Assembly: GCF_900163695.1 (NCBI RefSeq)
Contig: NZ_FUIC01000022.1
Span: 1 to 64,000, forward strand
Direction of reading: 5' to 3'
Source of the DNA: Gulosibacter sp. 10
GTDB lineage: Bacteria; Actinomycetota; Actinomycetes; Actinomycetales; Microbacteriaceae
Length of the DNA: 64,000 nt
Shown here: in pieces, positions 55,711-62,199 of the stretch
Layout: every line of letters starts with the position of its first letter
Numbering within the stretch: position 1 is the stretch's first letter
Translations under genes and position numbers: made by a program
The notes under the pieces: generated by a model
What the model was told of the DNA's origin: nothing
The model's database searches: none
The model's input: only the letters and a program-made list of their open reading frames with translations

Positions 55711-56776
55711 GGTGCGTGTCGGGTCCCGCCACCAGGGCGGTGTGGCTTTGACGCGCGCGATGCTCGGTCTGCGTTGGGTGTTATCGAGCGCGGTCGGGAG
55801 GTTTAGGCGTGATAGTCGGGGACCATCGTGATTGGCCCCGGCTGCGATGCGATCTTGATCTGGTTTGGGAGCTGCACCTGTTCGTGGCGGTTCCATCGGG
55901 GTCCGCGTCCGGTGCGACGGCATAGTCCGAAGCGCAGCGAGCGAGGTAGAGGGCGTAGATCGTGGGTGCGTGAGTGCCGCCTGAAGATCGTTGATGGGAT
56001 GGTCTCTCTTTTCGGATCTGGACGAACGTTCCGCGCCTGGTCGTCGTAGTCGAATCGGCGAGCTCATCAAATACTCGAGTGGGACTGCCGAGGAGTTACC
56101 GAACACACGAGGAAGCAGAGCTGATGCCGAGACTGTGCTGGCTACCCTACTGCCCCCTCCCTAAACCTAAACCCTTCTTGCCTTGCTGGTGCTGCCTCGA
56201 TTTGCCGATAAAAGCCTGATCAGGGCAGGAAAACTTCATGTCGTGCGTTCGTTCTTCCGAGAATATGCCGTTGAGAGGATCCGTTCTGACGCTGGCTGTA
56301 TCTACATCTACTGATTTGGATGCAGAATGACGGTACGTCATGGGTTTGTCCAGTTTCCTGCGGAGAGTCATGAGAGAACCTGTTTTTCTCGATACTCCGA
56401 ATATTGCTCAGCGGGTATCTCAGACGCACAGAAGGTGCGCACCCTTCCCGAGCGCTTTTGTCATTGCTCCTCCAAGAAGGGGCGTGTCCGGAGCGCTTGC
56501 CGGAGAACCGGTGGTGACCGATATCGATGGAGAATGTCGACTCGATGGTGGGAGCTCCTCTTAGACGTAGTCGACCTCGAGACCGAGTCCGCTTCGAAGT
56601 ACTGAGGTGTCCCACGTTGGTCGTCGATCCGACTCGAGTAGAAGATGTTGTCCTGCTCGTAAGATGACCCCGGGGCGAATGCGACCTCGGGGCTCAAGGG
56701 GATCCTCCAACGAGACTGATGTTCACCTCTCTTGCCAGGAAGCAGAGCTCATACGGTGCCTGTCATGTGGGCAGAT

Positions 56777-56790
56777 GTTTCACGTGAAAC
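56777..56790. promoter_or_regulatory. parS site 1 (perfect)
   Basis: GTTTCACGTGAAAC, flanked TG...C as in the 16-bp consensus. Confidence 0.95.
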
Positions 56791-56935
56791 CCTAGATACA
56801 TGAAGCCAAGGAATGTTCTGTTCGACGAGTAGGGAGCGCACCTTCCCACGGAAGCACGCCATTTCAGAGCGTGTCGCTTCTCCACAGCCTGCGTATGGTG
56901 CGATGTTCAGTGTCGTTTCGCGGCATTTCAGGGCG

Positions 56936-56949
56936 GTTTCACGTGAAAC
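56936..56949. promoter_or_regulatory. parS site 2 (perfect)
   Basis: GTTTCACGTGAAAC, 159 bases from site 1; symmetric GG...CC surround. Confidence 0.95.
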
Positions 56950-57346
56950 CAAGGGACGCAGCAGAAGAGGGGTCGTAGACGCTTGGTCAGGTGTTGTCTC
57001 GCGATGGACAGCTCGTGTGCACGGTACTTCTCCTGCCTGTCTTGGCGAGGTGAACCAGATGCGAGGGCGATCATCACGAGAGGTATTCGCAAGTGTGCGG
57101 CAATGAAGCCGTCGTCAAACGCGATTCGGGCGGACTGAGGCTGCATTTCGTACGGAGACGAAGCCGTATCACTGCTGGGGTTTTACGCTGCGGGACCAAT
57201 CCAATGGGTATGCATTACAGGAAGACTTACCTCTAAGGAGGACCGACCCCCTCGGTTGAGCCGAGTACTGGTGGTTCCTACGGAGGGTAAGAGGAGAATA
57301 TGGAGCCTTCGTCTCCGAGCATTGGATGATATGAGCACTCAGGGTC

Positions 57347-57360
57347 GTTTCACGTGGAAC
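57347..57360. promoter_or_regulatory. parS site 3 (one change)
   Basis: GTTTCACGTGGAAC; A to G in the right arm. Confidence 0.88.
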
Positions 57361-57610
57361 ACTCCAGCTACCCGGGTGAGCCATTTGGTCGAGTGTCATG
57401 TACATTGCGCGGCCGGAGAACCTGCGCCGCGAGGGTCCGAGGAATTGGGAGAGATCGAGCGAAGCCCTAGCGGGCGGCAGCCCGCCGTCGAAACAGCAGT
57501 GTGTGTTCTGAAACCGTAGGGTAATCCAGGCATACACGGAGAAGGTGGTTGCAGTATCTCAACCTGTTGAGCAAGAGCTACGGACTGCTCCGTCATCGGT
57601 ACCGACTGTC

Positions 57611-57624
57611 GTTTCACGTGAAAC
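57611..57624. promoter_or_regulatory. parS site 4 (perfect)
   Basis: GTTTCACGTGAAAC. Confidence 0.95.
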
Positions 57625-58268
57625 GGCATAGGTGCGCACGAAAGATGTGAAGTCTGAACGCCGCTCGGGCCACACGACACCGCCGACGATGAACCGAACG
57701 AATCAATCGAACAGCCAAAGCGTCTGCGAGTGAACCCATGATGGCTCCATGGCCGTTGGACAGGAGACAGTCACCCAACGCGGTTGGGCTCGTGAACGTT
57801 CTACGCATTGCGGTGGGTATGCTCGGCGCCCGGTATAAGGGTATCGAAGACGGATCAGCAGGTCTCTCGGATCGTGACTCCCGTGGAGTGGCGCAAACGA
57901 ACAGAGAACCGACTTGCTCGTGCTCCACGGCTCCGGCAAGGCACGAGGCATCACTCCTTGACGCGATACGGCCACGATGACCTTTGTCGCGAATACTCGA
58001 TGAATCCTCACGTCATGCGAAGCCGTACGCGGCCGTATGTTGCCGGTTCTTTTCAACGAACGAAAATCCGCATGCCGAGACGAGGCGCTCTATGCGGTGG
58101 AAGATGTGTACGGTTCTCGTCGGGGACGGTGAACCCGGAGGGCGGAACTCATCTGCAGGAATGGTGACGGAAGGAGGGCCTGATGATTCGGGAACATTCC
58201 AGCTTCGACTTCATCTCAATCAAGCAGTGCCGAGCCAGAATCGAGAGAGATGGACCGTTGATGAATCG

Positions 58269-58282
58269 GTTTCACGTGAAAC
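58269..58282. promoter_or_regulatory. parS site 5 (perfect)
   Basis: GTTTCACGTGAAAC with GG...CC edges. Confidence 0.95.
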
Positions 58283-58523
58283 CTCTCGCTCGTTTCGAGG
58301 GGATCTGAGCGGCATCCGCGTGGATGAGGGCGCGCGGAGACGGCCCTTCTGTATGGATCTTCAGTCGTGGGCCCTCACTCGACGGAGCACTGTATGGGAT
58401 CAACGGCATGTGAAATCGACCATGAAACCCGAATACATCGAAGCTTCTTCGAGGGTGACTCTCCGCCAGGTCCCCTACCAACGGCGAGGTGTAGGAACGA
58501 AGCGACCACGGTCAGAGGATGGT

Positions 58524-58537
58524 GTTTCACGTGGAAC
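58524..58537. promoter_or_regulatory. parS site 6 (one change)
   Basis: GTTTCACGTGGAAC, flanked TG...A as in the consensus. Confidence 0.88.
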
Positions 58538-60392: not shown

Positions 60393-60406
60393 GTTTCACG
60401 TGAAAC
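60393..60406. promoter_or_regulatory. parS site 10 (perfect)
   Basis: GTTTCACGTGAAAC with TG...C edges. The gap to site 11 (811 bases) is the longest and contains a half site CACGTGAAAC near 60608. Confidence 0.95.
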
Positions 60407-61203
60407 CACTTCGCCTACACAGAGCGGAGCGGGACAGACCGCAACCGAACGAGGTAGTTCATTGACTGCCCACCAGTGCAGGTTCCCGGAACTAGTAGTC
60501 GGCAGCCCCCAAGGGGCCGAAGCTTCGGCAGAAACCTCCTGGACGAGGTGGGCATTGACCTGTTGTGAACGCTGGATAGTGGTCTGCATGTCGTCAGTCC
60601 CTGTGCGCACGTGAAACCCCTCCTTGGCCTGACAGAGACGCCAAGAGGCCGGTTTGGGCAGGAACAATCGGAAGTCCCATAGACGAAGCATCTTCCGCTT
60701 TCTCCGTCTACCTAGCTCGGTTCACTGCGAAGTACCACACATGCCGACGCGACTGCGCACGGCCGGCGGTCGCGTGCGTGCCCTGCTGTTGGCTTCGGGT
60801 ACGACATGTGCTCCCGGAAGCGTCATCATCAGGGGCCGAACGAGTTCCCCGGGAGGCTTCACGAGTTGGAAGAGCGGGAGGGTTGCTCGGATATCGGCGA
60901 AGCAGGACAGGCTTGCCTGGAGGCGGTCAGCCACTTCCACTTCGACGATGTTTCGGAGGTGTGCGTTCTCGAGGCCTGCACTTCTCGCCAGCATCTCAAT
61001 CGGGACACGCTCAATCGACAAGTCGAGCACGCACTTTGCTCACCGTTCCTGAAATGGACTCGAGGTGAGCGGGCCTGGTGACGTTCAGCAGCCGGGGAGG
61101 CATATGTCTGGTTGACATTGAGAAGGCGCGGATGGCGTCATGGGCCCGCAGAAGCGTGACTGGAGGTGGTCACTGACGGTGTCGCGTTCTGCGGACGAGG
61201 GGT

Positions 61204-61217
61204 GTTTCACGTGAAAC
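61204..61217. promoter_or_regulatory. parS site 11 (perfect)
   Basis: GTTTCACGTGAAAC. Confidence 0.95.
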
Positions 61218-61480
61218 CGATGACGACCACGGGAGGCATTGGCAATGTCCCTGTTCACGTCAGGACTTGCTGTGGGAGATACGTAGAGCGAGGCTAGATC
61301 TGGTCGTACGACTGGCACTGGGCTGGGTAAGCGGAGGCGCTCAGACGCTCGGGCGGGTGTCGGAAGCCGGTTAGTGACGCTGAGTTTTGGTTGTCTGTGG
61401 CGCTCCCATTACGAATGGAACGAGTTCGTTTCGTCAGGTTCCACGCATTCCGAGACAACACGCTGCTGGCACCTTGCGGC

Positions 61481-61534
61481 AGCAGGAGCAGGAGCAGGAG
61501 CAGGAGCAGGAGCAGGAGCAGGAGCAGGAGCAGG
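61481..61534. repeat. AGCAGG hexamer array
   Basis: Nine exact contiguous copies of AGCAGG inside the parS region, between sites 11 and 12. Every unit is identical, which suggests recent slippage. Confidence 0.97.
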
Positions 61535-61706
61535 ACGGGTCGCCTCACCATTCGGTTTTACCCAACAGATTGCGGGAGTGACACGGGGGTCGCGAACGGC
61601 CGGTTGCGAACGGGGACTCGTATGACCTGCGCCGTGGTCCGTTCTGTGATTTGAAGGATTCACGAAGACCAACGGTACGGCTCTCACGAGAATCGAGGTA
61701 TGAGCA

Positions 61707-61720
61707 GTTTCACGTGAAAC
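61707..61720. promoter_or_regulatory. parS site 12 (perfect)
   Basis: GTTTCACGTGAAAC. Confidence 0.95.
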
Positions 61721-62111
61721 GGATAGTTGAGACCGAGGGGTTCTCCCGAGGACCTCGACGGAGCACCGGAACGAACGTCCGAACCTCATCCACGAACCAA
61801 CCAGCACGATGATGAGTCGGCCATCGCTTATGCAGCGAGTTGGCGTTCGCATGATCATGATCGTCTCTCGCATCACCGTCGGCTCGGCCGCTCGACTCTG
61901 CAGCAAGCGATGGATGGCCGATGACTGTTCGCCTCGGTACGCGCAACCCTATCGGTGCAGCAAGACGGTCAGCGAGCACAACCGCGCCCTCCCTCCACGA
62001 TCGTGTCTTCCCATCTTTGGTTCGGTGGAACGCCACGAACATTATTCTCCCGCTATCAACAGTCAGGCACAGCGACGAAGACCTTGGGAACGGGCACTGC
62101 CGGCGGTTACC

Positions 62112-62125
62112 GTTCCACGTGAAAC
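62112..62125. promoter_or_regulatory. parS site 13 (one change)
   Basis: GTTCCACGTGAAAC. Confidence 0.88.
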
Positions 62126-62185
62126 GCTCTCTGAGCCTCCGCGAGCCGGGTCGACGGTACTGTCGTAATGGCACGGAACCCTCAT

Positions 62186-62199
62186 GTTCCACGTGAAAC
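62186..62199. promoter_or_regulatory. parS site 14 (one change), parA-proximal
   Basis: GTTCCACGTGAAAC, only 74 bases from site 13 and 114 bases before the parA start, so ParB bound here could also affect parAB transcription. Confidence 0.88.

Follow-up and report, generated by a model that had tools for sequence, protein, structure and literature searches.

A compact array of 14 parS sites between rsmG and parA as the probable chromosomal centromere of Gulosibacter sp. 10

The 64,000 bp stretch of the Gulosibacter sp. 10 genome analysed here (the window; contig NZ_FUIC01000022.1, positions 1 to 64,000) carries 14 parS sites within about 5.4 kb between rsmG and parA. Judged from sequence, this array is very probably the chromosomal centromere of the organism, a multi-site platform for the loading of ParB clamps that would have been built by duplication and whose sites would be kept by selection. 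The features of the locus are listed below; the parS sites were located by motif scan and, like the interval as a whole, are given without a strand.

50189..51877, minus strand: dnaA (TIGR00362, E 1.6e-154), the marker for the origin-side end of the locus
53956..54600, plus strand: jag, R3H protein (gene map and profile match)
54612..55298, plus strand: rsmG (TIGR00138, E 4.6e-39)
55299..62312: rsmG-parA interval housing the parS array (gene map; no coding signal; codon-position contrast absent in 55380-61620)
55361..55729, minus strand: piece of a thiolase C-terminal domain, decayed gene remnant (Pfam Thiolase_C, E 1.3e-9)
56777-62199: array proper, about 5.4 kb
56777..56790: parS 1, GTTTCACGTGAAAC
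56936..56949: parS 2, GTTTCACGTGAAAC
57347..57360: parS 3, GTTTCACGTGGAAC
57611..57624: parS 4, GTTTCACGTGAAAC
58269..58282: parS 5, GTTTCACGTGAAAC
58524..58537: parS 6, GTTTCACGTGGAAC
58937..58950: parS 7, GTTCCACGTGAAAC
59376..59389: parS 8, GTTTCACGTGAAAC
59806..59819: parS 9, GTTTCACGTGGAAC
60393..60406: parS 10, GTTTCACGTGAAAC
61204..61217: parS 11, GTTTCACGTGAAAC
61707..61720: parS 12, GTTTCACGTGAAAC
62112..62125: parS 13, GTTCCACGTGAAAC
62186..62199: parS 14, GTTCCACGTGAAAC, 127 bp before the parA start
62313..63212, plus strand: parA, partition ATPase, 299 aa (Pfam AAA_31, E 1.6e-53; same position in relatives)
63202..64000, plus strand: first part of parB (433 aa in full), which extends beyond the window

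Fourteen 16-mers with at most three mismatches from TGTTTCACGTGAAACA were found at 56776-62200, against a mean of 0.05 in shuffled sequence; they are the same 14 cores that an earlier note on this DNA had placed at 56777-62199. When scored on the 14-bp core, eight of the 14 are GTTTCACGTGAAAC and six are one-mismatch forms of GTTYCACGTGRAAC. The rsmG-parA interval contains no words at two or three mismatches from the core and two at four mismatches (1.83 expected). The genome-wide scan with up to two mismatches that the note had proposed bore out the confinement of the sites: no further site at 0-1 mismatch turned up anywhere in the assembly (3,651,988 bp, 55 contigs), and three additional words were found at two mismatches, compared to one for a reversed-pattern control. 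All 14 sites at 0-1 mismatch lie inside 5.4 kb, a compact single cluster as in Myxococcus xanthus. The gene content is that of a type Ia-like chromosomal ParABS system, with a ParA of the AAA_31 family followed by a ParB with ParB_N, HTH_ParB and ParB_C domains; ParB_N starts at residue 161, leaving 160 residues ahead of it. Among the 80 named records listed in a comparison of its ParA, identity reaches 64% at most, over the best segment. The canonical parS sites lie beside parA and about 5-10 kb from dnaA, the gene standing in for oriC in this measure.

The interval is 7,014 bp long. From position 56000 on, its longest open reading frame has 192 aa (mean 202 and maximum 303 in 40 shuffles), and the codon-position GC contrast peaks at 0.21, compared to 0.18 (sd 0.02) in shuffles and 0.62 in the neighbouring genes. 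Positions 55380-61620 form the window's longest stretch without codon-position contrast, the runner-up measuring 1.6 kb. One of ten interval ORFs searched against Pfam gave a match, the Thiolase_C remnant on the minus strand, and the rsmG end of the interval is therefore a decayed gene. A search of the genome for its source gene returned a single other relative, weak and 40% identical. No Rfam match reached the gathering score in 50000-64000, and promoters and terminators in the interval were not in excess of shuffles. Apart from the thiolase remnant, neither codon-position bias nor protein or RNA family matches mark the interval as coding; the earlier note's description of about 6.5 kb with no credible gene holds with the exception of this remnant at the rsmG end. 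Coding signal was likewise absent in eight of nine other arrays of the genus tested. Coding-like stretches occur in four sampled intervals (contrast 0.49 in L094, 0.41 in L052, 0.35 in L001 and 0.33 in L015), so that the gene-free state is not universal; the stretch in L094 precedes the first parS site.

In the genus, every one of the 11 genomes has 9-17 parS sites, and the array is therefore not an assembly artefact. In ten of them, all sites of the genome are confined between jag and the end of parA. In the remaining genome, G009, four of nine sites lie on the locus contig, which ends among the sites, a few hundred bases upstream of rsmG. This contig end and the 55 contigs of the window's assembly would fit an origin in which mis-assembly or contamination joined repeats between rsmG and parA. 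Such an origin is scarcely credible, since separate assemblies, including the one-contig genomes G008 and G010, have like arrays with different spacer sequence; for the array as such, they already rule out the artefact that the earlier note had named as a possible refutation. Three species, together a clade (support 99), have the array between rsmG and parA; seven others have it mainly in the jag-rsmG gap. A comparison of parS-masked spacers from 45 intervals gave 41 cross matches; among the 40 matches listed, nearly all are between congeners, in the approximately 110-120 bp adjoining parA, or in microsatellites. The architecture of the array is kept in the genus while the spacers become unalignable between most species.

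The spacers of the window array measure 74-811 bp and are more evenly distributed than random (CV 0.48, P 0.003). Evenness combined over ten arrays of the genus is highly significant (Fisher 7e-9), with five of the ten individually not significantly even, and spacings below 100 bp make up 3.6% of 112, compared to 28.7% in simulations; these tests count species as independent. The window array by itself has no significant shortage of short gaps (P 0.20). Tandem units with an intact parS were found by TRF in five of 45 intervals (L096, 151 bp ×4.3; L097, 170 bp ×3.2; L099, 141 bp ×2.4; L015, 249 bp ×3.1; L011, 51 bp ×2.5), with units of 51-249 bp, and self-BLAST added L108 and L127, where offsets of 279 and 394 agree with a parS spacing of 279 and 395. 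As read from their sequence, the tandem units in some relatives are a trace of duplication. L096 holds 21 parS-like copies, part of them damaged, and the ten genus arrays together hold 14 words at 2-3 mismatches where about 1.5 would be expected, a pattern in keeping with sites that arise and decay. Head-to-tail units with one binding site each, the mark of a satellite, make up part of the array in the five TRF intervals, including those of the congeners L096, L097 and L099. The window array consists of no such units, and neither TRF nor self-BLAST found tandem similarity left in it. As it has neither tandem similarity nor a significant deficit of short gaps, its origin by duplication is argued from the relatives. 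The comparison with eukaryotic centromeres drawn in the earlier note gains some force from the partial satellites of relatives, with a parS in each unit, and does not extend to the window array, which has no such repeat.

The interval could also be read as mainly neutral junk, intergenic DNA enlarged near parA as genes decayed and repeats slipped, in which parS accumulated passively by duplication, their number bringing no benefit. The thiolase remnant at the interval end, the common occurrence of AGCAGG and other microsatellites, the correlation of interval length with parS number (rho 0.84, 101 loci across the family) and the many relatives that manage with 1-5 sites would fit this reading, as would the presence in six of ten genus arrays of at least one word at 2-3 mismatches, expected of passive copies in decay. 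It is nevertheless unlikely: 9-17 intact sites are kept throughout the genus across spacers that cannot be aligned between most species, and intact sites far exceed half-decayed ones, with none at 2-3 mismatches in the window, L098, L099 and L100.

If the array is the centromere, ParB dimers would load at the 14 parS sites as CTP-dependent clamps, slide across the spacers and merge into a single partition complex, which ParA would move and which probably also serves as the SMC loading site. Arrays would expand as a unit consisting of one parS and its spacer is duplicated in tandem, as presumably happened in the window; the spacers would drift freely and selection would retain a working number of sites, which would preserve the architecture but not the sequence. 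The freedom from transcription conflict that the earlier note saw in a gene-free array is not supported in the form given there; in published simulations, short-lived roadblocks hinder ParB sliding only mildly (PMC10387095). A single parS has been reported to be enough for segregation in Corynebacterium glutamicum (PMC7083940) and Pseudomonas aeruginosa (PMC4368675), which counts against the centromere reading and in favour of an array that is chiefly regulatory, a ParB sink or operator field tuning the expression of parAB or rsmG with one or two sites serving segregation. A parS near parA is indeed nearly universal (within 200 bp in 129 of the 140 loci having any parS in the counted stretch). 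A chiefly regulatory role is quite improbable, as a single-gene operator would not easily permit arrays upstream of either rsmG or parA, and the number of sites seems to be above the need of autoregulation.

In 101 measured Microbacteriaceae loci, which are not a random sample, the median rsmG-parA gap is 325 bp and 24 gaps exceed 2 kb; the two genes, stated in the earlier note to be normally adjacent, are not always so in relatives. Dense arrays are also present in Pseudoclavibacter and its kin g73, several Microbacterium, g50 and g85. The view that this lineage evolved a compact, dedicated centromere is upheld in that the array is compact, holds all canonical sites of the assembly and recurs throughout the genus; the form is not special to one lineage, and a compact parA-side cluster is already present in M. 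xanthus.

Plasmid partition centromeres (e.g. that of pSM19035) also consist of compact repeated binding sites within a partition system, with other site types and proteins. The window differs from them in being chromosomal, with canonical parS and spacers of 74-811 bp. The M. xanthus cluster has 22 parS in about 3 kb (mean spacing about 145 bp, divided from the printed coordinates), approximately 4 kb upstream of parA, with parAB about 35 kb from oriC, and binds ParB in vitro (PMC3899335, PMC3778016, PMC10387095). It shares with the window a compact chromosomal position near parA, and a compact cluster is therefore not new in kind. It belongs to one species of another phylum, the reported consensus is TGTTCCACGTGGAACG, and the passages describing the cluster mention neither tandem units nor gene content. 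C. glutamicum likewise has an actinobacterial ParABS with parS1-10 in one cluster, nine of the ten intergenic; these sites are interspersed with genes over 35 kb, at 73 kb from oriC, with three ParB zones, and do not form a single gene-free array (PMC7083940). As far as found, the gene-free, partly satellite-like form, the occurrence of the array on one or the other side of rsmG and a loose association with long ParB linkers are new.

ParB linker length and parS number are correlated across 76 genomes (raw rho 0.77). In tree contrasts r is 0.34 (P 0.003) and falls to 0.20 without the top three; the signs agree in no more than 39 of 75 contrasts. Linkers measure 54-57 aa in three Microbacterium loci (L001, L015, L016) that have 13, 13 and 9 sites, and M. 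xanthus reportedly has 22-24 sites with a short unstructured ParB N-terminus, residues 1-35, versus the 160 residues before ParB_N in the window (PMC3899335, PMC3778016, PMC10387095). Given the weak contrasts and these short-linker exceptions, a causal tie between linker length and site number was rejected and the relationship is retained as an association. A wider proposal remains tentative and rather doubtful: that Microbacteriaceae repeatedly evolved regional centromeres as gene-free, satellite-grown arrays with one parS per unit, eukaryote-like turnover and a minimum spacing of about 100 bp, able to lie to either side of rsmG and co-evolving with a long disordered N-terminal ParB linker that might let crowded clamps reach ParA or each other. 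The related genomes form a series of 1 to 18 sites set among the same genes, with differences in the number, spacing and position of the sites and in the length of the ParB linker. Their comparison makes it possible to ask what number of loading sites a partition complex requires, how near together these may lie, and how centromeric DNA turns over. This bears on why bacteria hold several parS when one reportedly suffices, and offers a bacterial parallel to eukaryotic centromeres, whose architecture is conserved while the sequence changes fast.

Helical phasing at 10.5 bp was not detected in 216 spacings (nR2 0.75; best value in the scan 4.6 at 9.7 bp). L066, with a 211-bp unit that has a parS-like consensus and no intact site, was dropped as a parS-bearing tandem array. 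An alternative parS was looked for in genus g17 and none was found. K-mer counts in the ten genus arrays with parS-like words masked gave weak 6-mers only (best AAGTAG, 22 versus 5.7), many of the 8-mers from the same counts were microsatellite-derived, and no second binding motif is claimed. Microsatellites, AGCAGG among others, are frequent in the intervals.

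Fourteen parS-like 16-mers were found at 56776-62200 of the window, with 0.05 expected from shuffled sequence, which bears out the 14 ParB sites beside parA described in the earlier note. They fill part of the 7,014-bp gap separating rsmG and parA, and all are at 0 or 1 mismatch, with none at 2 or 3. In a scan of the whole assembly, sites with at most one mismatch to GTTTCACGTGAAAC occurred only at the array; beyond it, there were three two-mismatch sites versus one for the reversed pattern. The sites are more evenly spaced than random (P 0.003), with 10 of the 13 spacings at 255-658 bp; taken alone, this array is not significantly short of spacings below 100 bp relative to simulation. 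An AGCAGG microsatellite with nine perfect copies (61481-61535) lies within the array, and similar hexamer runs are present in the loci L016 and L103.

The interval had also been called free of genes, and this holds apart from one gene remnant: ORF length and codon-position GC contrast indicate that the gap is non-coding, and Rfam gave no matches in it. Pfam, applied to 10 ORFs of the gap, matched only the remnant of a thiolase C-terminus (55361-55729, minus strand) at the rsmG end, the sole gene fragment recognised in the interval. Family-model matches were obtained for dnaA, rnpA, yidC, jag, rsmG, parA and parB; Jag and ParA fell below NCBIfam cut-offs and were assigned through Pfam (R3H; AAA_31) and gene order.

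A parS match is present in 195 of 199 Microbacteriaceae genomes, and nine or more sites in 20 of the 199 (our reading of the table). The rsmG-parA gap was compared in 101 loci of the family, a non-random sample consisting mostly of those nearest to the window's ParA, plus many-site genomes. Its median length was 325 bp, 24 gaps exceeded 2 kb, 10 held nine or more sites, and gap length followed site number (rho 0.84). At least nine sites within 8 kb were found in 18 of 105 loci, from g1, g73/Pseudoclavibacter, Microbacterium and g50; two further compact arrays come from genus g85, with 9 sites in 3.2 kb in one and 13 in 7.4 kb in the other. Since compact arrays occupy at least three separated places on the tree, they likely arose repeatedly. 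The opposite of compact is seen in g70 and g6, where parS is scattered widely: 9 sites across 84 kb (G141, g70), 8 across 56 kb with a ninth on a separate contig (G193, g70), and 8 across 105 kb with a ninth on a separate contig (G015, g6). These three genomes are smaller (1.4-2.4 Mb).

All 11 genomes of the window's genus carry 9-17 sites, and in 10 of them the count at the locus equals that of the genome. The locus was obtained for ten relatives. Three species (window, L092, L093), which form one clade (99 in a quick tree of five proteins), have the array in the rsmG-parA gap, and seven (L094, L096-L101) have it between jag and rsmG, with rsmG adjoining parA; the L095 locus is interrupted by a contig end. 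Single sites also lie inside parA in L092, in the start of rsmG in L094 and L099, and between rsmG and parA in L094 and L100. The jag-rsmG gap of L094 contains long overlapping ORFs at 11722-13020, one of 413 aa on the minus strand and one of 392 aa on the plus strand, whose contrast is coding-like (0.49); they precede the first parS at 13806. In the sister genus g73, 7-18 sites are found in the rsmG-parA gap, and Pseudoclavibacter L002 places within or beside g73 in the tree. Exactly one parS lies in the jag-rsmG gap of 56 of 100 Microbacteriaceae loci, and 56 loci have at least one in both gaps; because sites in both are so common, an array could be seeded from either.

Tandem Repeats Finder was run on 45 intervals, comprising the genus arrays (one partial) and other rsmG-parA gaps above 1 kb. 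Tandem units with intact parS were found in five (151, 170, 141, 249 and 51 bp). Self-BLAST with parS masked added L108 and L127, where repeat offset equals parS spacing within one base. L096 has 21 parS-like copies, mostly at steps of about 150 bp, several of them damaged. Between species, parS-masked spacers aligned mainly among congeners, beside parA or at microsatellites; those of the window matched other species solely at the microsatellite and the stretch adjoining parA. Words at 2-3 mismatches occur in 6 of 10 genus arrays (14 in total by our sum, versus about 1.5 expected), which fits birth and decay of sites. Five of the 10 genus arrays, among them that of the window, had spacings more even than random at P <0.03. 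Spacings below 100 bp made up 3.6% of 112 in the genus versus 28.7% simulated, 5.6% of 72 versus 28.1% after removal of three clear tandem arrays, and 5.2% of 96 versus 19.4% in ten other dense arrays.

Myxococcus xanthus likewise has a compact parS cluster near parA, in which 22 sites occupy about 3 kb (PMC3899335, PMC3778016). Among titles and abstract beginnings, mostly outside subscription journals, neither such arrays in Microbacteriaceae nor satellite-type chromosomal parS were found. ParB is a CTP-dependent clamp that is loaded at parS and then slides along the DNA (PMC10387095, PMC12462528). With loading sites this close together and no genes between them, a single continuous ParB domain would form. 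A gene-free array might also spare ParB conflict with transcription; in simulations, short-lived roadblocks matter little for ParB sliding (PMC10387095).

ParB_N starts at residue 161 of 433 in the window's ParB. In M. xanthus, ParB has a conserved motif close to its N-terminus that binds ParA (PMC12462528). The GLGRG motif is presumably its counterpart here. The linker, from the N-terminal GLGRG motif to the CTPase domain, was measured in 99 of 105 family loci; its disorder was judged by eye from composition. It spans 108-203 aa in the window's genus, 191-210 in g73 and 183 in Microbacterium gubbeenense (L052), with a median of 53 aa among the 81 loci under 100. Linkers of at least 75 aa were found in 21 of 22 genomes with eight or more sites versus 3 of 54 with fewer (80 genomes, four unmeasured, leaving 76). 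Among 30 further genomes, 28 of them measured and their selection deliberately including many-site ones, linker and site number were correlated (rho 0.42, P 0.026). Linkers are 163-169 aa in g70, and in g85 148 aa with 13 sites and 51 aa with 9. Long linkers accompany many sites, and many sites are possible without them. A causal tie is disfavoured by weak phylogenetic contrasts (r 0.34), and exceptions with many sites and a short linker or N-terminus are Microbacterium L001, L015 and L016 and M. xanthus. Linkers of 89-169 aa were also observed in g70 and g6 despite scattered parS.

GTTYCACGTGRAAC is absent from three related Microbacteriaceae genomes of genus g17 (G026, G106, G167; loci L133, L134, L135). 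Sites at up to three mismatches numbered 10, 5 and 6 versus 16, 8 and 6 in the control, without excess, and a search for a new palindrome in 100 kb around parA returned coding-like noise alone. The GRSRP motif of the ParB helix-turn-helix has a role in reading parS; it is GRNRT in two of the three genomes, and g17 may possibly have switched parS specificity.
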